Assembly (NCBI RefSeq): GCF_004135365.1
Contig: NZ_CP035492.1
Location: 434,001 to 498,000, forward strand
Direction: 5' to 3'
DNA: 64,000 nucleotides
Origin: Paenibacillus protaetiae
Lineage (GTDB): Bacteria > Bacillota > Bacilli > Paenibacillales > Paenibacillaceae
Made by a program: the position numbers and the translations under genes. Of the stretch, positions 45,603-57,867 are shown piece by piece; position 1 is the first letter of the stretch, and each line of letters begins with the position of its first letter. The notes beneath the pieces are model-generated. The model worked only from the letters and a program-made list of their open reading frames with translations, had not been told where the DNA came from and did no database searches.

Positions 45603-46304
45603 CTAATCTCCTAAAAAGGCGGTGATAGTTCTCAAACTGTCAATAACATACTTTGGGCGAACATTATTATCAACAGGGCTGCCGTTTCGATTGTAATAAC
45701 AAAAATCTATCCCGGCATTTATTGCTCCGTTGTAATCATCGTGCAAGGAATCGCCTATAAACAATGCCTCTGTACGTTTTATGTCTAGCCGCGTAAGCGT
45801 CTCATCAAATATCTTCTTATCAGGCTTCCAGTAACCTACCTCATCAGAAATAATCAATGCATCAAAAAAATGATTAATGCCTCCCGCCGCAAGTCTATTT
45901 CGTTGAGCTTCACCAATTCCATTAGAAATAATTGCCAACTTATACTTGCCATGTAAATGGAATAAAACTTCCTTTGCATAGTCTTCAAAATCACAAGCGC
46001 GACAAAAAGTATTCCAGTATAATTTGGCAAGTATGCCTGATTCGGAAGGATCTAATCCAAGATCTTTGAGCGTGTCTTGAAAGGAGTGCTCTAAAATTTG
46101 ATAAATATTGTAGCCGGATGTCTGGCGGTTGCTCCAATAATGGAGGTTTACTCTGCTGAAAAGGTTCCAAAACATATTCCAAGAGAAAGTCTCTTTATGA
46201 ATTAGTCCATGCTTTTCCACGGTTTTTTGCATTGATTTTATTTCACTTACAGAGTAGTTCAACAGAGTATTGTCTAAATCAAAGAGAATAGCTTTATAGT
46301 TCAC
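45603..46304 (-). CDS. HAD-IA phosphatase, YjjG/YfnB-like nucleotidase
   Basis: A 233-residue HAD phosphatase. Motif I is ILFDLDNTLLNY (nucleophile Asp 10, acid Asp 12), motif II LAIISNG, motif III the Lys of YWKPDKKIF and motif IV FIGDSLHDDYNGA. Length and cap match the YjjG/YfnB group of noncanonical pyrimidine nucleotidases. The GTG start follows GGAGGTAATCT. Confidence 0.85.
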   Translation of the reverse strand: MNYKAILFDLDNTLLNYSVSEIKSMQKTVEKHGLIHKETFSWNMFWNLFSRVNLHYWSNRQTSGYNIYQILEHSFQDTLKDLGLDPSESGILAKLYWNTFCRACDFEDYAKEVLFHLHGKYKLAIISNGIGEAQRNRLAAGGINHFFDALIISDEVGYWKPDKKIFDETLTRLDIKRTEALFIGDSLHDDYNGAINAGIDFCYYNRNGSPVDNNVRPKYVIDSLRTITAFLGD

Positions 46305-46316
46305 AGATTACCTCCA

Positions 46317-46656
46317 TTAAGTCGTAGATTCTGCTAATTGCTTAAGCATTGAAAGCACAGATTGGCTGTCGCCCTCGTCTTCCGGGTTATCATGACTGCT
46401 AATGTCAGAGCCCGGCCGATTGTCGTGCTGTTTAATCGTAAGCAAGGTACCTTCTTTTTTTGCTTAAGATATAACTCATCTTGAAGTCATTCTCGGGCTT
46501 GTTCTTTATGCCGGGACGCGGGGCGAAGAGAGAGCAACTGAGAGACCAACAGGGTGAAAACTCTAACACCGTATCCCACACTCGTTCTGCAGGCGCTTGA
46601 ATAAATATGCGAGACGTACTGGTGGACAACTGTTCTCTCTCCTCAAAAAGATTCAT
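46317..46656 (-). pseudogene. Decayed SRPBCC (AHSA1-like) domain protein
   Basis: The reading from the ATG at 46656 begins with the SRPBCC strand RIFIQAPAERVWDT and jumps directly to VLEFSPCWSLSCSLF and KPENDFKMSYILSKK, segments that normally lie about 50 residues later. It then hits a stop at 46432. A +1 shift at the A7 run (46455-46461 complement) continues with EGTLLTIKQHDN and SVLSMLKQLAEST to 46317, the usual C-terminal helix. An internal deletion plus an inserted A make this a true pseudogene, unlike the G-run breaks elsewhere. It lies 13 bp before the HAD gene. Confidence 0.6.
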
Positions 46657-46859
46657 TTACCAAATATTTGTAGTATTCGGCGCTTTCACAGTAAAATCCT
46701 TCCATAATTTATATCAGTTAAAGCTATAATATTTGAGGCTGCATGCAGCGACTGCCGATTGATGTTATGCTAGCGTGTTCTCTGTGCATCCGGCTTTTTC
46801 TCTTCTTGAAATCAGTTGCTGCACAAAAGAGATTTAACCTTACTAATTTGACGGCATTT

Positions 46860-47101
46860 TCATGATACAGCAAAACTCGCAGTTTTTATTTTTGGATAAA
46901 CCTTGGTGAACTTGAGCAAAGTGCGAGTCGGGGTGCGAGTAAGAAGTGCACATGTTTTTCTTGGGACATTCGCACCATTTTTGTGGTATGATTTTCCTTG
47001 AAACGAATCGCGGAAATACACTATTTTTCGTTTTGTGAAAATTTCTGTCAAAGTTCTGATCTTTTTTATCAATTTCGAACGGTTTTTAGCATGAAATCGG
47101 T
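46860..47101 (+). promoter_or_regulatory. Leader of CRISPR array 1
   Basis: AT-rich DNA upstream of the first repeat. It holds two direct GTGCGAGT words (46921-46928 and 46933-46940) and a 45-bp element (46932-46976) that starts GGTGCGA and ends TCGCACC. A close copy of the element is found upstream of array 2. The degenerate repeat at the other end of the array supports this side as the leader. The region 46657-46859 before it holds nothing recognisable. Confidence 0.75.
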
Positions 47102-47605
47102 GTCGCACCTCGCTGAGGTGCGTGGATTGAAATTTCGTAGGGGCGCTCATCTACGCATACAACGCTTGAGTCGCACCTCGCTGAGGTGCGTGGATTGAAA
47201 TAAGGCTTGAACGCGAGGCGTGCCCACGTAGTTCAGTCGCACCTCGCTGAGGTGCGTGGATTGAAATCCTTTAAAACGCCCCAGCTCTCCGACGTCTTAA
47301 CGTCGCACCTCGCTGAGGTGCGTGGATTGAAATCCGGTTTTTATTTTACAAGCATATAGCGCCTATATATCGTCGCACCTCGCTGAGGTGCGTGGATTGA
47401 AATTGCAGGAGCATTATACCCCTGCGCGAATATGGCGGCGTCGCACCTCGCTGAGGTGCGTGGATTGAAATCTCCAGCTGCTCCCGGGCAGCGCGCTCGT
47501 TGTGGAGTCGCACCTCGCTGAGGTGCGTGGATTGAAATGCGACTGTCGTAGGCGCATAAACGAATGGCAGGGCAGTCTCACCTCATGAGGTGCGTGAATT
47601 GAAAT
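47102..47605 (+). CRISPR. Type I-C CRISPR array 1 (8 repeats, 7 spacers)
   Basis: Repeats of 32 bp begin GTCGCACCTC, have a palindromic core (CGCACCTC-GCT-GAGGTGCG) and end GTGGATTGAAAT, the usual type I-C end that becomes the crRNA 5' handle. Starts: 47102, 47170, 47236, 47302, 47372, 47440, 47507, plus a degenerate 31-bp last copy at 47575 (GTCTCACCTCATGAGG). Spacers are 34-38 bp. The array ends 60 bp before cas3 with no terminator between. Confidence 0.98.
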
Positions 47606-47664
47606 CTGCCAAAAAATATAGTGTAATTCTAATAGACTTCCTATATCAAAGGAGACAGGTGAGG

Positions 47665-50106
47665 ATGAAGGACTATATTGCGCATATTCGTTCAAGTGAC
47701 GGCGAGATTCAAACAGTTGAAGAGCATCTACTGGGAGTGAAACAATTAGCCGAATCGTATGGGGAGAAGCTGGGTGTTAAGCATATAGCCGGACTGGCTG
47801 GTATGTTGCACGACATGGGGAAATATACGAATACTTTCAGGACATATATTCTGGAAGCGGTGAAGAATCCGAATAATCCTCCCAAACGGGGGAGTGTTGA
47901 TCATTCGACTGCCGGCGGAAAATTACTCTATGAGAAGTTTCATCAGGGGAAGTTTACGCAGTTCCATGGGGTTCTTGCCGAGATCGTAGGCAATGCCATC
48001 ATATCCCATCACTCTTATTTGCATGATTTCCTCAGTACTGATCTGGAAACCCCCTATTTGAACCGTATGCGTAAAACGGAACCGGAGCTGCCGCAATATG
48101 AGATGTCGAAACAATTGTTTTTCGAACATGTTATGCCGGAATCAGAATTTTTGTCCTATGCGGGTGCAGCTGCTAACGAGCTGGAAGCTTACTTGAGAAA
48201 ACCTTCAAAGGAAAGCACTGGTACGAGATTAATGTTTCTAAGTAAATATATTTTCAGCACATTAATTGATGCTGACCGGACGAACACCAGGATCTTCGAG
48301 GAAAAAGCGGCTGCCGAGCCGGAACTGGACAGTGCTCGCCTGTTCACCGTATATTACGATCGGCTAATGAGAAGGATTGAGAGCTATTCGGAGCGGGCTG
48401 ATGCAATTTCACCTATAAACCTACTGCGGAGAGAAATGTCAGAACAATGTGACAAATTCGCCGAACGGCCATCCGGCATTTATTCCTTGTCGATTCCAAC
48501 GGGAGGCGGAAAGACGCTGGCTAGTTTGAGATACGCGCTAAAACATGCGCTTTCTCCATCACACCCGAAGAAACGAATCATCTATGTGGTCCCTTTTACG
48601 ACTATTATTGAGCAAAATGCGGAAGAGATTCGCCAAATCCTGCAGGACGATGTTCATATTCTTGAACATCATTCGAATGTAATTGACGATGACCATGATG
48701 ATGATGAGCTTGAGGATGGCATCATCAACACTCGTCAAAAGCTGAAGCTCGCTAAGGACAATTGGGACTCACCAATTATTTTCACAACGCTCGTGCAATT
48801 CTTGAACGTGTTTTATGCCAAAGGGAGCCGTAATATTCGTAAACTACATAATCTGTGTGAATCTGTCATCATATTTGATGAAGTGCAAAAAGTACCGGTC
48901 TCTTGTGTATCGCTTTTTAACCATGCGCTTAACTTTCTAAAGACGCACGGTCAGTCAAGTATCGTATTGTGCACGGCAACGCAGCCGGAGCTGGGTATTG
49001 TTGAACACAACCTGCATGTGGAGCCGGATATGGAAATGGTATCTGACTTGGACGAGGTTGCTAGAGCATTCAAGCGTGTAGAGATCGTAGACCGAGCCAC
49101 GGACGAGAAGTGGGACACGGCGATGCTGGCAGATTTTGTTGAAGAGAAAATACATGATGTTCGGAGTTTGCTAGTTATTTTAAATACCAGATCGGTTGTT
49201 AAACGGTTGTATCGATATCTGAAGGGCAAAGGCGGCAGTATTCCGATTTATCATCTAAGTACATCCATGTGTGCTGCCCATCGCACCTCTATTCTTGATG
49301 CTGTTCGAGGGCATCTGGATAAGGAGGAGCCGGTGCTCTGTATTAGCACACAATTAATTGAAGCAGGTGTAGATATCAGCTTTGATGGTGTCATACGTTC
49401 ATTGGCTGGCTTGGATTCTATTGCACAAGCTGCCGGACGCTGCAATCGTCATGGCAAGAATGGGGTTCAACAGGTGTTTGTTATTGATCATATTGAAGAG
49501 AAGCTGGACAAACTTAAAGAGATTGAAGTGGGGAAAGCGGAGTCTCGGAATATATTAAGCTATATGAAGCGCGATCCGGAATCGTTTGGCGGTAATTTGT
49601 TGTCGGCTTCAGCAATTAAACGATATTTTCAAGCCTTTTATGCTGACTTTGAGACGAGCTTGAATTATGCAGTTTCGGGGTTAGACATAAGCATGACGGA
49701 ACTTCTAACTGTTGAGAAGCAGAACAGCGAATTAGTAAGATCCTATACCGCAAATAAGCAAGCCAAACTGCCGCTTTTTATTGCGCAAAGCTATAGGACG
49801 GCCGCTGAACATTTTAACGTCATTGAGGATAATGCTGTGTCTGTTATTGTGCCATACGGTTACGGTAAGGAGTTGATTGCAACGCTGAACGGAGGAGAAA
49901 CAATAGCTGAGTTGTCCCGGGAGTTAAAACGGGCACAGCACTATTCCATTGGGTTGCTTCCTTATGAACGGGATATTTTATCCCGAAATGGCGGCCTTGT
50001 CCCGCTGCTCGATGGAAAAGTATTTGCCCTGCGAGAGAGCGCTTATAGTGATGAATTTGGTTTAAATTTAGACAATGACAGCGAGTTTGAGCTGGGTTTT
50101 ATTTGA
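47665..50106 (+). CDS. cas3: CRISPR-associated nuclease/helicase Cas3 (type I-C)
   Basis: An 813-residue protein. The HD nuclease is N-terminal (AGLAGMLHDMGKYTNTF near residue 50; later SHHSYLHDF). The superfamily 2 helicase has Walker A SIPTGGGKTLASL near 280, the DExx box FDEVQKVPVS near 415, and CISTQLIEAGVDISFD and SIAQAAGRCNRHG (motifs V-VI). It degrades target DNA after Cascade binding. The ATG at 47665 follows AAAGGAGACAGGTGAGG; earlier in-frame starts lie inside the CRISPR repeat. A hairpin ends this gene before cas5. Confidence 0.96.
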   Translation: MKDYIAHIRSSDGEIQTVEEHLLGVKQLAESYGEKLGVKHIAGLAGMLHDMGKYTNTFRTYILEAVKNPNNPPKRGSVDHSTAGGKLLYEKFHQGKFTQFHGVLAEIVGNAIISHHSYLHDFLSTDLETPYLNRMRKTEPELPQYEMSKQLFFEHVMPESEFLSYAGAAANELEAYLRKPSKESTGTRLMFLSKYIFSTLIDADRTNTRIFEEKAAAEPELDSARLFTVYYDRLMRRIESYSERADAISPINLLRREMSEQCDKFAERPSGIYSLSIPTGGGKTLASLRYALKHALSPSHPKKRIIYVVPFTTIIEQNAEEIRQILQDDVHILEHHSNVIDDDHDDDELEDGIINTRQKLKLAKDNWDSPIIFTTLVQFLNVFYAKGSRNIRKLHNLCESVIIFDEVQKVPVSCVSLFNHALNFLKTHGQSSIVLCTATQPELGIVEHNLHVEPDMEMVSDLDEVARAFKRVEIVDRATDEKWDTAMLADFVEEKIHDVRSLLVILNTRSVVKRLYRYLKGKGGSIPIYHLSTSMCAAHRTSILDAVRGHLDKEEPVLCISTQLIEAGVDISFDGVIRSLAGLDSIAQAAGRCNRHGKNGVQQVFVIDHIEEKLDKLKEIEVGKAESRNILSYMKRDPESFGGNLLSASAIKRYFQAFYADFETSLNYAVSGLDISMTELLTVEKQNSELVRSYTANKQAKLPLFIAQSYRTAAEHFNVIEDNAVSVIVPYGYGKELIATLNGGETIAELSRELKRAQHYSIGLLPYERDILSRNGGLVPLLDGKVFALRESAYSDEFGLNLDNDSEFELGFI

Positions 50107-50127
50107 ACTGACTTCAAGAAATGGAAT

Positions 50128-50163
50128 GAAACCTATCTATATTAGACCAGATAGGTTTCTCTC
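50128..50163 (+). terminator. Hairpin between cas3 and cas5
   Basis: GAAACCTATCT (50128-50138) pairs with AGATAGGTTTC (50149-50159) and is followed by TCTCTT. A moderate terminator separating cas3 from the remaining cas genes. Confidence 0.65.
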
Positions 50164-50263
50164 TTCAAACAATATATTTTTCAATCCGCGCTTTGCAGCG
50201 ACGTCCTATTCTAACATATGCTGCTGAGGAAAATAAATATTTCATATATTGTTTCAAGAGATA

Positions 50264-50292
50264 TTTACAAATGGAATTTAATACAATAAAAT
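50264..50292 (+). promoter_or_regulatory. Putative promoter of the cas5-cas2 operon
   Basis: TTTACA (50264-50269) and TAAAAT (50287-50292) are 17 bp apart, 40 bp before the cas5 start, in AT-rich DNA after the cas3 hairpin. Confidence 0.5.
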
Positions 50293-50331
50293 GGAAGTAG
50301 AGTGTTGAGTGAAATGAAAGGAGGTGATGCG

Positions 50332-51051
50332 ATGCGAAATTCGATCGAATTTGAGGTATCGGGACCTTATGCTCTATTTACTGATCCTCTGACTAAACTC
50401 GGCGGGGAAAAGTTGTCCTACCCTATTCCAACCTATCAGGCGTTGAAGGGGATTATTGAATCCATATATTGGAAGCCGACACTTCTGTATTACATTGATG
50501 AAGTTCGGATTATGAATCCGATTCGCATGGAATCCAAGGGGGTTCGTCCTTTAGATTATAGTGGCGGCAACACTTTAGCGAATTATACATACTTGCGTGA
50601 CGTGTGCTACCGGGTTAAGGCTCATTTTGAGTTTAATCTTAACCGCCCGGATATGGCATTTGATCGTAATGAAAATAAACATCATAACATCCTTAAGCGC
50701 TCCTTGAAAGCAGGCGGTCGCAGAGATATTTTTCTTGGAACGCGTGAATGCCAGGCTTATGTCGAGCCATGTGAATTCGAGGCTGGCAAGGGATTCTATG
50801 ACCATTACGGCGATATTCATTTCGGTACGATGGTTCATGGCTTGAATTACCCGGATGAGACGGGACGAAATCAGCTGGAGGTTCGCCTATGGCAGCCGGT
50901 TATGAAGGACGGCGTCATATGTTTTATTCGGCCGGAGGAGTGCACTCAAGTGAGGGTTATTTCCGAGATGCTTCCGAAGCGTTTCGACGAAACGAATGTA
51001 GAGTCGGCAATCGAGCTGGACGCACAGTTGGATAGAGAGGTGAATCTATGA
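50332..51051 (+). CDS. cas5c: Type I-C Cas5 (Cas5d), pre-crRNA endonuclease
   Basis: A 239-residue RAMP protein. In type I-C there is no Cas6 and Cas5 cuts the precursor RNA in the repeat; none of the cas genes here is a Cas6, in agreement. The start [36 protein letters not shown] splits into the standard first strand and loop, and RGTREC-like [13 protein letters not shown] is also typical. The ATG at 50332 follows AAAGGAGGTGATGCG. It overlaps cas8c by 4 nt. Confidence 0.93.
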
Positions 51052-52976
51052 GCTGGCTATTGAGTTTATACGAGACCTACGAAGCCAATATCGAGCAGGC
51101 TGGGAAAATGGAAAAGAAGATTAACAAGAAAAATCAAACGGAACAGGAATATACGCTGCTGCCTGTATCGCATACGACTCAAAATGCCCATATCGAAGTG
51201 ATTGTAACGGAAGATGGAGAATTTCTAACCGCATCCGTCATTGATAAAAGCGATGTGAGTACGCTGATTCCTTGTACCGAGGACTCGGCCAACCGGGCTG
51301 GCTCCAAGGTCGCTCCATACCCGCTGCATGATAAGCTCAGCTATGTTGCCGGGGATTTTACCGCTTATGGCGGTGAAATCAAGAAAGAAGATCCTTATGC
51401 GGCATACATCAAGCAGCTTGGCGAATGGGCTGAATCACCGCATGCGGTTGCAAAGGTGAAAAGCATCCATCGGTATCTTAGCAAACAAACGCTTATACAG
51501 GATTTGATCAGTGAGCGAGTGCTGTTTGTGGATTCGTCCAACAAGCTGATTGACCGGTGGGACGACGCGGCCAAAGCACTCTACGGCGAGAAGCCGGCGA
51601 TTTATTCTTTGCTCCCGGGCGATATTGCGGCTGCCTTTATCCGTTTTGATGTGTACTCACCGGACAAGCCGCCGGTAAAAGTATGGAGAGATCCGGAGAT
51701 GTATCAATCATTTATCCAGTTCTACAGCGGTCAGCTGGGTAAAGAAGATTTATGTTATGTGACCGGACAAAATCTGCCTCAGACGGAGAAGCATGCAAAT
51801 AAAATTCGTAACGCAGCAGATAAGGCAAAATTAATTTCGGCAAACGACACAAGCGGATTTACTTTCCGGGGGAGATTTAATGCCAGTCAGGAAGCAGCAA
51901 GCATCAGCTACGAAGTATCCCAGAAGGCACATAATGCACTGAAATGGCTTATTATCCGGCAGGGGAAGATCATTGATGACCGGGTATTTCTTATCTGGGG
52001 TAATGACGATCTGAACCTTCCTGGTATTGAAGAAGACAGCTTCACACTTGTGCTTTCTCCATCCGCAAGCGAAGAGATGCCGTCTCAAGTATCGTTTACA
52101 AACAAAGAATTTGCCCGCGAAGTGATTAAAGCAATTGACGGTTATCGCAACCGGCTTGCCAGTTATAACGAGGCGAAAGTCAATATTATGATTCTGGATT
52201 CGGCGACAACGGGTCGGATGGCTGTGTTATATTATCGCAATTTGAATAAGGAATTTTATTTGGATAGACTGAAGAACTGGCATACTACCTGCGTCTGGGA
52301 ACACCGATACCGCAAGAGCAGCGATGGAGAGTTCATAGCCTTCTACGGAGCTCCGGCTACTAAAGACATCGCGTTTGCTGCATACGGTCCCCGGGCGAGC
52401 GATAAGGTTGTTAAAGGATTGATGGAACGGATGCTGCCTTGCATTGTGGACGAGCGTCCTATTCCTTCAGATATTACAAACAGTGTATTTCGTCGTGCTT
52501 CCAATCCAGTTAGCATGGACAAGTGGGAATGGGAGAAGACGCTTAGCATTGCTTGCGCTCTAATTAAGAAAAACCTGAAGGAGGAGTACGACGTGGCGCT
52601 TGATCAAACAAACGAACATCGGGATTATTTATTTGGGCGATTGTTAGCAGTAGCAGATGTGCTGGAGCGGCGTGCGCTAGGTCCAGAGGAGAATCGAGCT
52701 ACAAATGCAATTCGTTATATGAACGCATTCGCCAGTCACCCGGCGAGAACGTGGGCAACCATACAGTCCAGATTACAGCCTTATCAGGAAAAAATGGGAG
52801 CAAAGGCTTCGTATTTGTCACGGGTCATTGATGAAATTGGCGATAAAATTCTAGTGAATGACTTCAACGACAAGCCTCTCTCCGGTGTATATTTGCTTGG
52901 TTTTTATAGTCAGCGGAACGAGCTTTATAAGAAGAAAAATGTCGAGGATGACTCTGAAGAATCGCCTATTCAATAA
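51048..52976 (+). CDS. cas8c: Type I-C Cascade large subunit Cas8c (Csd1)
   Basis: A 642-residue Csd1-family large subunit, responsible for PAM recognition and R-loop stabilisation. It begins [18 protein letters not shown], with [21 protein letters not shown] and the C-terminal [17 protein letters not shown] that are family signatures. The ATG overlaps the cas5 stop in ATGA. Confidence 0.94.
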
Positions 52977-53027
52977 AAAGCTAGCTGCAGAACGAATCTA
53001 ACAAAGCAAATTAAGGAGGAGAGATTT

Positions 53028-53890
53028 ATGGCTGTATTAGGAAATAAGATTGATTTCGCAGTTGTGTTGTCAGTAACGAAGGCGAACCCGAATGGTGATC
53101 CGTTGAACGGTAATCGTCCTCGGCAAAATTTTGACGGACACGGTGAAATTTCGGATGTGGCTCTCAAACGTAAAATCCGCAATCGCCTGCAAGATATGGG
53201 AGAAGCAATCTTTGTGCAATCCAATGATCGTAAGACAGATGATTATGGCAGCTTGCGCGAGCGTGCGGAGGCGAATGCCGAGCTCGAGCGAATCTTTAAG
53301 GCGAAAAACGGTTCAAGCGATGAATTTGCGGCCGTTGCTTGTCGGGAGTGGATCGATGTCAGAAGCTTTGGACAAGTATTTGCCTTCAAATCCGATAAGG
53401 CCGGATCAGGCGTATCCGTAGGCGTTCGGGGCCTGTGTCGATTCACACGGCAACGAGCCTGGAGCCGATTGATATTACCAGCATGCAAATTACCAAAAGC
53501 GTCAATTCAGAACCTGGAGCAAGCCGGGGATCGGATACGATGGGACTCAAGCATCGTGTTGATTCTGGTGTCTATGTGTTCTATGGCAGCATAAACACGC
53601 AACTGGCAGAAAAAACCGGATTTACCTATGAAGATGCTGCAAAATTCAAAGAAGCGCTGGTGTCGTTGTTTGAAAACGATGTTTCCTCCGCCAGACCGGA
53701 AGGCAGCATGGAGGTTCATAAGGTTTACTGGTGGGAGCATTCCTCCAAACTAGGTCAATATTCATCAGCGAAGGTACATCGTTCGTTAAAGATCCGTAAG
53801 CTTGTAGAGGAGCCACGTAGTTTCGAGGACTACGAATGTGAAGTACAGCCGTTGGAAGGCTTACAGGTTCAAGAACTTGATGGAAGATAA
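53028..53890 (+). pseudogene. cas7: Type I-C Cas7 (Csd2) backbone subunit, split by an apparent -1 frameshift
   Basis: The first frame encodes the Csd2 N-terminus (DFAVVLSVTKANPNGDPLNGN, CREWIDVRSFGQVFAF, SGVSVGVRG) and then loses similarity, stopping at 53594. The -1 frame resumes at once with PVSIHTATSLEPIDITSMQITKS, MGLKHRVDSGVYVFYGSIN and VYWWEHSSKLGQYSSAKVH and stops at 53890. Joined, it gives a normal Csd2 of about 287 residues. The break sits at CGGGGCC (53427-53433); one more G or C restores RGPVSI. All other cas genes are intact, so a sequence error is more likely than loss of Cascade. Confidence 0.88.
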
Positions 53891-54536
53891 CGAAGATGAA
53901 TATTTAATGCTGTCTGGTATACAGCACTTTCAATTTTGCAAGCGCCAATGGGCATTTATACATCTGGAACAGCAATGGGTTGAAAATGTAAAGACGATCG
54001 AAGGTTCTCACTTGCATCGGAAAGCCGACCAGCCTTTTACACGTGAGAAACGCGGGGATAAACTGATCGTGAGAGCGATGCCGGTGAAGTCTGTGAGCCT
54101 TCGAATTTCTGGCGTATGTGATGTTGTCGAGTTTATTCGGGACGAGCGAGGCGTGAATATTAGCGGCGGAGAAGAAAAATACGCTGTTTATCCGGTAGAG
54201 TATAAGCGCGGGAAGCCGAAGCGGGGAAACGAGGATATTCTGCAATTAGCTGCTCAAGCCATCTGTTTGGAAGAGATGTTAGTGTGCGAAGTGGACACCG
54301 GTTATCTGTATTACAACGAAATCAAACATCGTGTTGAAGTGCCGCTCACCGAAGAAATCAAGCGGAAGGTGAGGGCAATCGTTGCCGAGATGCAGGACTT
54401 GTACAAACGTCAGCATACGCCAAAGGTAAAGACAGGAGCTTTCTGCAAGAGCTGTTCTCTTCAGTCCATATGCTTGCCTGAACTGATGAGCAAGCGTTCG
54501 GTTCGCAGCTATATTGAAGGGAAGTTGAAGGAATGA
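53880..54536 (+). CDS. cas4: Cas4 exonuclease, adaptation
   Basis: A 218-residue RecB-like nuclease that trims prespacers and helps select the PAM in type I-C. The four cluster cysteines are in HFQFCKRQW near residue 20 and CKSCSLQSIC near residue 195. The nuclease core has VCDVVEF and PVEYKRGKPK. The ATG at 53880 overlaps the end of cas7 by 11 nt; the 3' end overlaps cas1 by 4 nt. Confidence 0.93.
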   Translation: MEDNEDEYLMLSGIQHFQFCKRQWAFIHLEQQWVENVKTIEGSHLHRKADQPFTREKRGDKLIVRAMPVKSVSLRISGVCDVVEFIRDERGVNISGGEEKYAVYPVEYKRGKPKRGNEDILQLAAQAICLEEMLVCEVDTGYLYYNEIKHRVEVPLTEEIKRKVRAIVAEMQDLYKRQHTPKVKTGAFCKSCSLQSICLPELMSKRSVRSYIEGKLKE

Positions 54537-55564
54537 AGAAGCTGCTGAATACACTGTATATCACCCAGCCGGATGCTTATTTATCATTGGACGGAGACAA
54601 TATCGTCGTACTGAAGGAACAGGAACGAATCGGTAGAGTTCCGCTGCATAATCTCGAGTCTATCGTTTCCTTTGGCTATCATGGCGCAAGCCCTGCTTTA
54701 ATGGGCTACTGCGCGGAACGCCATATTGCACTTCTTTTCTATACGGCAAGCGGCCGTTTTCTGGCAAAAGTGATCGGGGAAAGCAACGGGAATGTACTTC
54801 TAAGGAAGAAGCAATATGCGATATCTGAGGATGAACATCGGTCTGTCGGGATCGCTCGAAATTTTATTATTGGCAAGCTGTATAATCATAAATGGATTCT
54901 TGAACGTATGACACGGGATCATCCGATGAGGATTAATGTCGCGCAATTCAAAGAAGTCTCGCAACATCTGTCGGAGCTGCTTCTGGAGATTAGAGCATGT
55001 AATAATTTGGCGCGTTTGCGGGGACTCGAAGGTCAGGCAGCCTACAGTTATAACAAGCTGTTTGACGCAATGATTTTGCAGCAACGTGAGGATTTCTATT
55101 TTCATTCGCGTTCCCGAAGGCCTCCGCTCGACAACGTGAATGCTATGTTATCGTTTGCCTATTCCTTGCTTGCGAATGATATGGCAGCTGCCTTAGAAGG
55201 TGTTGGACTTGATGCTTATGTCGGGTTCTTGCACCGTGATCGGCCGGGACGGGTATCATTGGCGTTAGATGTCATGGAGGAGTTACGCGGCGTCTACGCG
55301 GACAAATTCGTCCTTTCTCTTATCAACAAGAAGGTTGTAAGTAAAAACGATTTTGTCAGGAAAGAAAACGGGGCTATTTTGTTGACAGAAGATGCGAGGC
55401 GAACTTTTTTGTCAGCGTGGCAAAGCAAAGAGCAGGAGATCATCACGCATCCTTTTCTTAATGAGAAGATACCTTGGGGACTTGTTCCGCACGCGCAGGC
55501 GCTGCTCCTTGCACGATTTCTGCGAAGTGATATGGATGAGTATCCGCCATTCCTGTGGAAATAG
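54533..55564 (+). CDS. cas1: Cas1 integrase
   Basis: A 343-residue Cas1 (type I-C). Conserved residues are visible in LRGLEGQAAYSYNKLF (metal Glu), SFAYSLLANDMAAALEGVGLDAYVGFLHRDRPGRVSLALDVMEELR split as family motifs with His and Asp ligands. Integrates spacers together with Cas2 at the leader end. The ATG overlaps the cas4 stop. Confidence 0.96.
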   Translation: MKKLLNTLYITQPDAYLSLDGDNIVVLKEQERIGRVPLHNLESIVSFGYHGASPALMGYCAERHIALLFYTASGRFLAKVIGESNGNVLLRKKQYAISEDEHRSVGIARNFIIGKLYNHKWILERMTRDHPMRINVAQFKEVSQHLSELLLEIRACNNLARLRGLEGQAAYSYNKLFDAMILQQREDFYFHSRSRRPPLDNVNAMLSFAYSLLANDMAAALEGVGLDAYVGFLHRDRPGRVSLALDVMEELRGVYADKFVLSLINKKVVSKNDFVRKENGAILLTEDARRTFLSAWQSKEQEIITHPFLNEKIPWGLVPHAQALLLARFLRSDMDEYPPFLWK

Positions 55565-55577
55565 GAGAGTGACATGG

Positions 55578-55868
55578 ATGCTGGTGTTAGTCACCTATGA
55601 TGTAAGTACACTAAGCAGCGCAGGTCAACGCAGACTAAGACTGGCATCGAAACTGTGCCAAAGTTACGGTCAACGTGTTCAGAACTCTGTATTCGAATGC
55701 GTAGTGGATGCAGCCCAGCTTACTTTATTAAAAATTAAGCTAGGTGAAATTATTAACCCGGACGAAGACAGTTTACGTATCTATCAGCTTGGCAACCATT
55801 ACAAGAACAAGGTTGAACATATTGGTGTAAAGCCATCATTAGACTTGGAAGGGCCGCTAATTATGTGA
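55578..55868 (+). CDS. cas2: Cas2, adaptation
   Basis: A 96-residue ferredoxin-like protein. It starts MLVLVTYDVST and has RRLRLASKLCQSYGQRVQNSVFE as in type I-C Cas2. The ATG at 55578 is 13 nt after the cas1 stop with AGGAGAGTGAC upstream. The leader of array 2 begins only 20-30 bp after its stop. Confidence 0.95.
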   Translation: MLVLVTYDVSTLSSAGQRRLRLASKLCQSYGQRVQNSVFECVVDAAQLTLLKIKLGEIINPDEDSLRIYQLGNHYKNKVEHIGVKPSLDLEGPLIM

Positions 55869-56079
55869 TGGAAAGCGAGTCGTTGGGGGTGCGAATTAGT
55901 GGTGCGAATGAGAAGCGAACATCGTTTTCCTAGGGGATTCGCACCACATTTTTTTTGAGAATCCTCCTATCAAGCTTCTACAATGTGATAGAATGATCGT
56001 TAATATCATTATTTGAAAATTTATTTCATAATTTTGACTTTAAAAAATATATTTATTCTCTTTTTGCGTAAAATCGCAG
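55869..56079 (+). promoter_or_regulatory. Leader of CRISPR array 2
   Basis: AT-rich DNA between cas2 and the array. Two GTGCGAAT words (55890-55897, 55903-55910) and a 45-bp element from GGTGCGAAT to ATTCGCACC (55902-55946) are shared with array 1's leader. The element ends 133 bp before the first repeat. The rest is A/T-rich, with candidate promoter hexamers such as TTGACT (56035-56040) but no convincing pair. Confidence 0.75.
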
Positions 56080-57867
56080 TCGCACCTCGCTGAGGTGCGT
56101 GGATTGAAATCGGATCGTGACCGCCTTGTCGTGATCGACGAGGACGGTCGCACCTCGCTGAGGTGCGTGGATTGAAATTTCTGGTTTTGATACCATGTAT
56201 GATACCGAAACCCGTCGCACCTCGCTGAGGTGCGTGGATTGAAATGTCCGGAGCAGCATCCAATAGCGCCGGCATAAACGTCGCACCTCGCTGAGGTGCG
56301 TGGATTGAAATACCTTTATTTCCAATCTGTTCGGCGGTTTGTTTAAGTCGCACCTCGCTGAGGTGCGTGGATTGAAATTATTTTGTCGTTAAGCTGATCG
56401 ACAATTTCTTTCAGTCGCACCTCGCTGAGGTGCGTGGATTGAAATCCGGGTACATCATCTACATTATAAAATTTTATACCAGTCGCACCTCGCTGAGGTG
56501 CGTGGATTGAAATATTCAAATCCACCGCGCCACCGATCCCGGCGACAACGTCGCACCTCGCTGAGGTGCGTGGATTGAAATATATCGAAGTGCCTGAACT
56601 CAACATTAACCATGAGTCGCACCTCGCTGAGGTGCGTGGATTGAAATTCTTCCCTCTTCTCTGATGCCGGCTACTTGGCCAGTGAGTCGCACCTCGCTGA
56701 GGTGCGTGGATTGAAATTATGTCCATAAGCGCCGGATCCCGAAAGCCGTATGGTCGCACCTCGCTGAGGTGCGTGGATTGAAATAACCTGGACGATCCAG
56801 ACGAAACGGACGATTTGGCGTCGCACCTCGCTGAGGTGCGTGGATTGAAATTTACTGGCTTGAATTTGTTGGCCAAGCCTTTAGGGTCGCACCTCGCTGA
56901 GGTGCGTGGATTGAAATTGCAAAAAGAACTGTATGCTCCCTCAAATCTGAGTCGCACCTCGCTGAGGTGCGTGGATTGAAATTAATCGAATACCGCTTCA
57001 AAAAAACGCCACGCTGTCGCACCTCGCTGAGGTGCGTGGATTGAAATTTTATGAGTGAATTGGAACAAATTGCTGACGAAAGAGGTCGCACCTCGCTGAG
57101 GTGCGTGGATTGAAATAGCATCTTGGATGAAAGAGTGAACGAAAGAAAAATGTCGCACCTCGCTGAGGTGCGTGGATTGAAATAAGTCAATGCTGCTGTA
57201 CGTTTCAAGGTCGATTGTCGCACCTCGCTGAGGTGCGTGGATTGAAATCTTGTACCGTGATACGGGCATAGATCGGTACAGAGTCGCACCTCGCTGAGGT
57301 GCGTGGATTGAAATTTCTGATACGGCCTGCGCCACGTTTTCCATGTATTCCGTCGCACCTCGCTGAGGTGCGTGGATTGAAATCAGAAGCCGCCACAAGA
57401 TGGCGGCGAGGGGATTAATATCGTCGCACCTCGCTGAGGTGCGTGGATTGAAATTCGTCATTCAGTCTTCTGGATTTGTTACCGTGATATCAGAGTCGCA
57501 CCTCGCTGAGGTGCGTGGATTGAAATTTGTGGGAAAAATGCATCTCCAATCCAACTGAACCGTCGCACCTCGCTGAGGTGCGTGGATTGAAATCCTTCTT
57601 ACCGGACGCGCGGAGAAACAGGCATATGCCGTCGCACCTCGCTGAGGTGCGTGGATTGAAATCCGGCGCTTGATTTTTGTAGCTGGAAAAGCAAAGGCGG
57701 TCGCACCTCGCTGAGGTGCGTGGATTGAAATTGCACCTGAATCAGCCGTCCTGCCCAGCGCCATGTAGTCGCACCTCGCTGAGGTGCGTGGATTGAAATC
57801 GTACGTGATGCCAGTACGCAGTCAGGTAAGCCAAGGTCGCACCTCACTGAGGTGCAGTAGATGAAAT
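56080..57867 (+). CRISPR. Type I-C CRISPR array 2 (27 repeats, 26 spacers)
   Basis: The same 32-bp repeat as array 1. Starts include 56080, 56147, 56214, 56280, 56347 ... 57700, 57768, and a degenerate last copy at 57836 (GTCGCACCTCACTGAGG ... ATGAAAT). Spacers are 33-40 bp. Twenty-six copies appear perfect, which suggests an array kept active until recently. The degenerate end marks the distal side; the leader is next to cas2. Open frames across the array come from the repeat and are not genes. Confidence 0.98.

Follow-up and report, generated by a model that had tools for sequence, protein, structure and literature searches.

In type I-E and type I-F CRISPR systems, motifs in the upstream leader dock the Cas1-Cas2 complex once IHF has folded the leader. 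Upstream motifs in a subset of type I-C leaders, together with a dependence on phase, were reportedly described by Santiago-Frangos et al. in 2021 (Curr Biol), and Buyukyoruk et al. are said, to go by the title of their 2025 article in CRISPR J, to deal with diverse leader motifs and subtype annotation. Another subtype, type I-D, likewise has conserved leader motifs that reportedly set the level of acquisition, if the title of the 2019 study by Kieper is followed. Upstream leader motifs that dock the integrase and depend on phase are a known kind of element, and part of the motif finding in type I-C may already be in print. The element to be described bears on how, in Cas4-containing type I systems of Gram-positive bacteria, Cas1-Cas2 may locate the end of the leader when IHF is absent. 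For type I-F the accessible part of one report describes contacts of Cas2 with conserved inverted-repeat motifs of the IHF-folded leader (PMC12259127), and according to the accessible part of another a leader-anchoring sequence specifies the integration site in type II-A systems that work without IHF (PMC9456107).

The 45-bp element described here is a conserved component of the leaders that precede type I-C CRISPR arrays. It resembles the sites of types I-E and I-F in lying far upstream of the first repeat and in that its phase to the leader-repeat junction matters, and those of type I-F also in being built of inverted-repeat motifs. Unlike both, it belongs to type I-C, occurs in a genome without IHF above cut-off, lies 104-157 bp away from the repeat and is accompanied by a lattice of A/T-rich stretches. 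As in type II-A, a leader sequence would specify the integration site in a system lacking IHF, and the I-C leaders, too, have a conserved end (CGC at -4 to -2 in 127 of 205 leaders), but the II-A signal is at most about 10 bp away from where integration takes place. The literature searched, which includes few subscription journals, yielded no account of I-C leaders that mentions spacing classes or an A/T lattice; these two features may, with some reserve, be unpublished.

The window, i.e. the whole stretch of 64,000 nucleotides from Paenibacillus protaetiae, contains a locus that was assigned to type I-C by NCBIfam protein models, with Cas5c, Cas8c, Cas7/Csd2, Cas1c, Cas4, Cas2 and Cas3 all matched. 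Its repeats have the length of 32-33 bp and the ending GTGGATTGAAA[C/T] which we take to be the defining motif of type I-C repeats. The arrays and the cas genes lie on the forward strand. Between array 1 (47102-47538, seven identical 32-bp repeats) and array 2 (56079-57867, 26 exact repeats and a degenerate last one) sit cas3 (open frame 47590-50106, TIGR01587/TIGR01596, scanned as 47659-50103), cas5c and cas8c (open frames 50302-52976, TIGR01876 and TIGR01863), cas7, cas4 (open frame 53838-54536, TIGR00372, scanned as 53859-54533), the type I-C cas1 (54533-55564, TIGR03640) and cas2 (55578-55868, TIGR01573, scanned as 55584-55865). The cas7 (Csd2) region at 53028-53890 is frameshifted as read, its two overlapping frames matching the two halves of TIGR02589, each below the cut-off for the whole protein; the interference complex may thus be broken in this strain, or a base call is wrong.

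In front of array 1 the element (E1, 46932-46976, +) consists of a polar core between the inverted arms GGTGCGA...TCGCACC and sits exactly where an earlier note on this DNA had placed it. Its counterpart before array 2 (E2, +) has the 45 bp given there but lies at 55901-55945, one base to the left of the reported 55902-55946, and the gap from the cas2 stop codon to it is 32 bases. The claimed likeness of the two is well founded, as they are identical at 35 of 45 positions without gaps, while order-1 Markov shuffling of the two upstream regions (401 and 209 bases), repeated 500 times, gave a best 45-base match that was 25.0 on average and never above 29. From the ends of the elements it is 125 and 133 bp to the first repeats (repeat starts 47102 and 56079), just as the note had it. 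The leader between E1 and array 1 (46977-47101, +, 125 bp) is the region in which averaged leaders carry the A/T lattice, and the one between E2 and array 2 (55946-56078, +, 133 bp) is 2.5 bp off the nearest position of the spacing lattice described below, which places it among the less well phased ones. A recent duplication of the whole leader, raised beforehand as a possible source of the likeness, is absent: the element-to-repeat segments of the two arrays are 0.65 identical to each other, about as much as to leaders of other species (best identity 0.66 and 0.67), all somewhat higher than shuffled leader pairs (mean 0.57, 95th percentile 0.62). A DNA search of the own genome with a 211-base query recovered only the query itself. 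The second direct GTGCGA word is indeed present 12 and 13 bp upstream of the elements (46921-46926 and 55889-55894, both +), but it is found in only 17 of 205 leaders and hence is not a general component.

Leaders for comparison were collected by means of Cas1. In the family set a search of 394 genomes gave 137 matches, from which the own genome and 118 places were used (those left out had mostly a Cas1 under about 61% identity or a partial one), and in the phylum set 398 genomes gave 106 matches, from which 60 places were taken; the named neighbours Paenibacillus and various Clostridia are within the searched set. All loci together comprised 309 array starts. Dropping 25 with less than 150 bp upstream left 284, removing 39 named or non-phylum rows left 245, and a further 24 with a badly anchored repeat or a masked leader reduced these to 221 usable same-phylum leaders. 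The scoring matrix was trained on the exact-arm elements of the same leaders with the scan length fixed at 45 columns, and the cut-off of -25 was set after the scores had been seen, with a best score of -34.9 among 150 shuffled leaders as null.

Above this cut-off the element is present in 208 of the 221 leaders, two of which are the window's own, so that most leaders of the subtype in this phylum contain it; outside the phylum the comparison covers seven arrays. Since the matrix was trained on these very leaders, a count that is independent of it is given as well: exact GTGCGA/TCGCAC arms occur in 168 of the 205 leaders used for spacing statistics, i.e. the 208 without three whose distances to the repeat are 11, 88 and 179 bp. 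The consensus is GGTGCGAATGTGAAGCGCACATGAATTCCCCGGGAGATTCGCACC; two inverted GCGAA half-sites flank the core, and the arms together with what they enclose span 43 bp. Polarity of the core is evident from the forward score, which exceeds the reverse one in all 205 leaders (mean 57.8 versus -14.6), and the length is nearly fixed. Element and distance are conserved together among relatives, the distances falling into discrete classes, as the alignment suggested in the earlier note was meant to reveal.

Thirteen usable leaders scored below the cut-off. A variant is recognizable by eye in four of them (L099, L219, L251 and L259), including one shorter by 10 bp and one shorter by 1 bp; in L221 just the left arm is present, the L078 leader is truncated, and L110, L111, L138, L214 and L230 resemble by eye putative pieces of arrays behind other DNA. 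No element was seen by eye in L032 and L232, which have arrays of 5 and 10 repeats. Thus the possibility that arrays of relatives lack the element holds for a few of them, and for these two in particular. In L099 the core is short by about 10 bp while the arms and the rest are kept in front of an array of 22 repeats; this variant is a whole-turn deletion inside the element. L179, L181 and similar loci possess a variant leader (GTGCGAACCCCAAGC...) with CTTGC...CAAGGG words that follow the element and recur close to the repeat, as well as a further GCAC-containing word in the middle of the leader.

The arms use the same words as the repeat stem of the window, which had been taken as an echo of the repeat. 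This is a coincidence because the arms stay constant while the stems vary: exact GTGCGA/TCGCAC arms accompany 123 of 148 repeats that do not start with TCGCACC and 45 of 57 that do. Clostridial arrays with the unrelated stems GTCGGGCTCC, GTCTCCGCTA and GTCTCGCCCC keep GGTGCGAA...TTCGCACC or close variants. A crRNA-like or antisense function of the arms was considered and rejected, as they do not track the repeat.

In the places examined the element keeps company with I-C arrays. The arm pattern GTGCGAA-29 bases-TTCGCAC occurs in 202 of the 394 family genomes, against three for the reversed control. Among 30 pattern loci (the first in the list, several of which overlap leaders of the Cas1 set), 29 have an I-C-type repeat downstream, some of them being remnants with one or two repeats, and the remaining one, L176, shows only degenerate repeat copies. 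With a slightly looser pattern all three copies in the own genome precede arrays, namely E1, E2 and the element of a third array (L272, at C1:777827) which has a different repeat and lies 137 bp behind its element. By eye this third array is preceded by a short open reading frame resembling a fragment of the cas3 HD region and by the last codons of cas2; it is probably the remnant of a second I-C locus that has retained its array and leader element. Additional I-C arrays, all of them with an element of their own, were also observed in L059, L128 and L130, and some family genomes hold up to 12 copies of the arm pattern.

Outside the phylum the sample comprised seven I-C arrays on plasmids, an eighth region (Leptolinea) having ended before the array. 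The arms are visible by eye in six of the seven leaders (Desulfovibrio, Zymomonas, Deinococcus, Phocaeicola, Rhizobium and Thermus) and not in that of Streptomyces; four of the seven pass the same matrix and cut-off. Such similar arms in I-C leaders of other phyla make a partner encoded by the I-C system itself the simplest assumption.

The distances from the end of the element to the first repeat are grouped. The 205 leaders fall into classes at 104-105 (3 leaders), 114-116 (15), 120 (1), 122-127 (106), 133-138 (51), 144-147 (25) and 154-157 bp (4), with centres near 105, 115, 125, 136, 146 and 157 bp, and not one of them lies at 106-113, 117-119, 128-132, 139-143 or 148-153 bp. A lattice of 125 + 10.5k, whose period and reference were chosen after the distances had been seen, accommodates 202 of 205 leaders within 2.5 bp and 197 within 2 bp. 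Because the main class (120-130 bp) inflates a Rayleigh test run over the full set of leaders, the following figures exclude that class: 98 of 98 leaders are within 2.5 bp and 93 within 2 bp, and after clustering at 0.7 identity, with one value per class per leader cluster, 28 of 28 are within 2.5 bp (nominal binomial p 9.5e-10) and 26 within 2 bp (nominal p 1.9e-9). The three exceptions, which miss the lattice by more than 2.5 bp, are L245 at 120 bp, with two repeats, and two leaders at 122 bp, all inside the main class and therefore outside the binomial test. Arrays upstream and downstream of the cas genes exhibit the same distance classes. With few exceptions the element is thus in helical phase with the leader-repeat junction, about 12 turns upstream of it (10 to 15 in the variants) and mostly on the same face of the helix. 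A phase fixed over 10 to 15 turns implies a constraint that keeps element and junction facing the same side of the DNA.

Between element and repeat the averaged leaders have peaks of A+T near -7, -17, -28, -38, -48, -58, -69, -79 and -88. In 161 leaders, clustered at 0.8, the A/T power at 10.5 bp is 6.76 versus 0.50 ± 0.27 in randomly shifted ones (0 of 2000 as high), with a best period of about 10.2 bp in register with the first repeat and a phase that agrees within 0.6 bp across the four distance classes tested. Leaders of the family (159) and those from elsewhere in the phylum (42) both show the lattice, and so does the two-site class when the last 12 bp are omitted (169 leaders). No A/T periodicity was detected in 4103 spacers (power 0.06, a value reached in 96 of 500 shifts). 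A point against the lattice is that at 10.5 bp the 100-bp stretch preceding the element likewise exceeds its shifts (1.31 versus 0.35), at a fifth of the power of the leader and with a main period of 16.0.

Some leaders contain a third site, GTTCGC or GATTCGC at -55/-54 from the repeat (22 of 205), and in the three-site class (29 leaders) the A/T lattice is weaker, 10.6 bp being only the third peak. Of 35 loci whose Cas1 is less than 0.565 identical to that of the window, 24 have TTCGC at -56 to -52, against 6 of 129 above this value (164 loci with Cas1 and leader; Fisher p 4e-15, for a cut made post hoc and with ancestry uncorrected); these six fall in the Cas1 group that is mostly devoid of the third site. 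As the third site is also present in Desulfovibrio, Zymomonas, Phocaeicola and, at -56, Deinococcus, the three-site form may be the older design.

We consider that the element probably serves to dock the I-C adaptation complex, which it would reach because the leader bends or wraps without IHF, and assign a probability of about 0.66 to this reading of the sequence comparisons. The element would be a double-stranded DNA site of type I-C leaders, and a leader with A/T-rich stretches at each helical turn would bend or wrap and so bring the element into contact with the adaptation complex (Cas1-Cas2, perhaps Cas4) at the junction. Such contact would single out that end of the array for integration and assist in orienting the complex. 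Partner, folding of the leader and a purpose in spacer acquisition are all three what we infer here. The adaptation complex is the likeliest partner in view of the company of I-C arrays across phyla and of a site variant associated with a Cas1 clade. Searching the own genome for IHF alpha or beta gave no match above cut-off and only two HU-family matches below it. For this reason the A/T lattice may stand in for IHF, and the element is not placed in the IHF-dependent family of leader sites but is regarded as working like them.

In the accessible part of a study on Bacillus halodurans, the I-C Cas4-Cas1-Cas2 complex was assembled in vitro on a hairpin target whose leader part measured only 10 bp, and mini-arrays took up the cleavage products in vitro (PMC6519985). 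If 10 bp of leader suffice in vitro, the element is not needed for catalysis itself and should rather affect where and how often integration occurs. Element, whole-turn spacing and A/T lattice predict that insertions of half a turn abolish acquisition and that insertions of a whole turn spare it. More tentatively, and at somewhat below even odds in our estimation, I-C leaders may be IHF-free self-folding platforms, in which a 10.2-bp lattice wraps 10-15 turns in a nucleosome-like fashion and the GCGAA element, the third half-site (at -54, in some clades) and the leader end touch the integrase.

The earlier note had left the choice between a site for spacer integration, leader architecture and an operator that controls the locus. 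Leader architecture has stood up, and the phase with the first repeat fits spacer integration better than an operator. Nevertheless, a regulator that recognizes the inverted arms and, through a promoter in the leader, controls transcription of the array or the cas operon has to be weighed as the foremost rival, unlikely but not negligible, since both window leaders carry promoter-like sites and the 10.5-bp steps could arise from phasing to a promoter: if the promoter were fixed relative to the repeat, this would look the same as phasing to the repeat. Promoter-like hexamers lie downstream of or overlap both elements (46963-46992, 46998-47027, 55955-55984 and 56025-56053) and are somewhat more frequent than in shuffles (3 versus 0.3 and 2 versus 0.7, one of the three being on the other strand), and inverted repeats are typical of operators. 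However, with similar sites ranging from Bacillota to Desulfovibrio and Thermus, the same regulator would have to operate in every one of these groups, the lattice is set relative to the repeat, and A/T peaks over about ten turns exceed the reach of one promoter. An operator of the cas operon as such is contradicted by elements that precede arrays without intact adjacent cas genes or, as E2, follow cas2.

Distinctly less probable is a general nucleoid protein of the HU type that binds or bends the leader while the element itself does not touch Cas proteins directly. The helical period of the A/T lattice would suit it, and so would the own genome with its two HU-family matches and no IHF above cut-off. 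But a long, polar and specific sequence alongside I-C arrays is unlike the site of a general protein, and the association of the third site with a Cas1 clade is at odds with it.

A neutral origin, in which slippage between A/T stretches recurring at each turn shifts the leader by about 10 bp and the phase is not selected, appears very improbable to us. Related leaders (identity 0.72 or more) that differ in distance by at least 4 bp do differ by 9-10 bp in 7 of 9 pairs, and the A/T stretches do recur at a spacing of about 10 bp. Slippage, however, leaves unexplained why the lattice is fixed to the repeat, and leaders of little residual similarity should have drifted off phase by other indels, yet none of the 205 is found in the gaps.

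A structured RNA (the 5' end of pre-crRNA, an attenuator or a terminator) can be practically dismissed, because the inner pairs of the element are poorly kept and its inner folds differ. Both E1 and E2 do fold into one hairpin each (z -3.6 and -2.9), E2 follows cas2, and T-rich DNA comes after both elements. Yet the three folded sequences, the third shifted by one base (z -2.0), share only the arms; four of five inner pairs are kept in just 51 to 133 of 186 distinct elements (the fifth in 166), so covarying inner stems are lacking, and helical phasing has no reason in RNA. Neither window leader, including the one after cas2, contains an intrinsic terminator-like site, and a search of 46000-57000 against Rfam gave a single sub-threshold match, inside array 2.

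For practical purposes the element indicates on which side the leader of an I-C array lies and how the array is oriented, including remnants of one or two repeats, and it could therefore serve as a detector of such arrays. Finally, near position 2744 of the oriented strand of L138 a CRISPR array with chimeric upstream repeats (GTCGCACTCCGTATGGAGTCGCACTCCGTAT) was observed.
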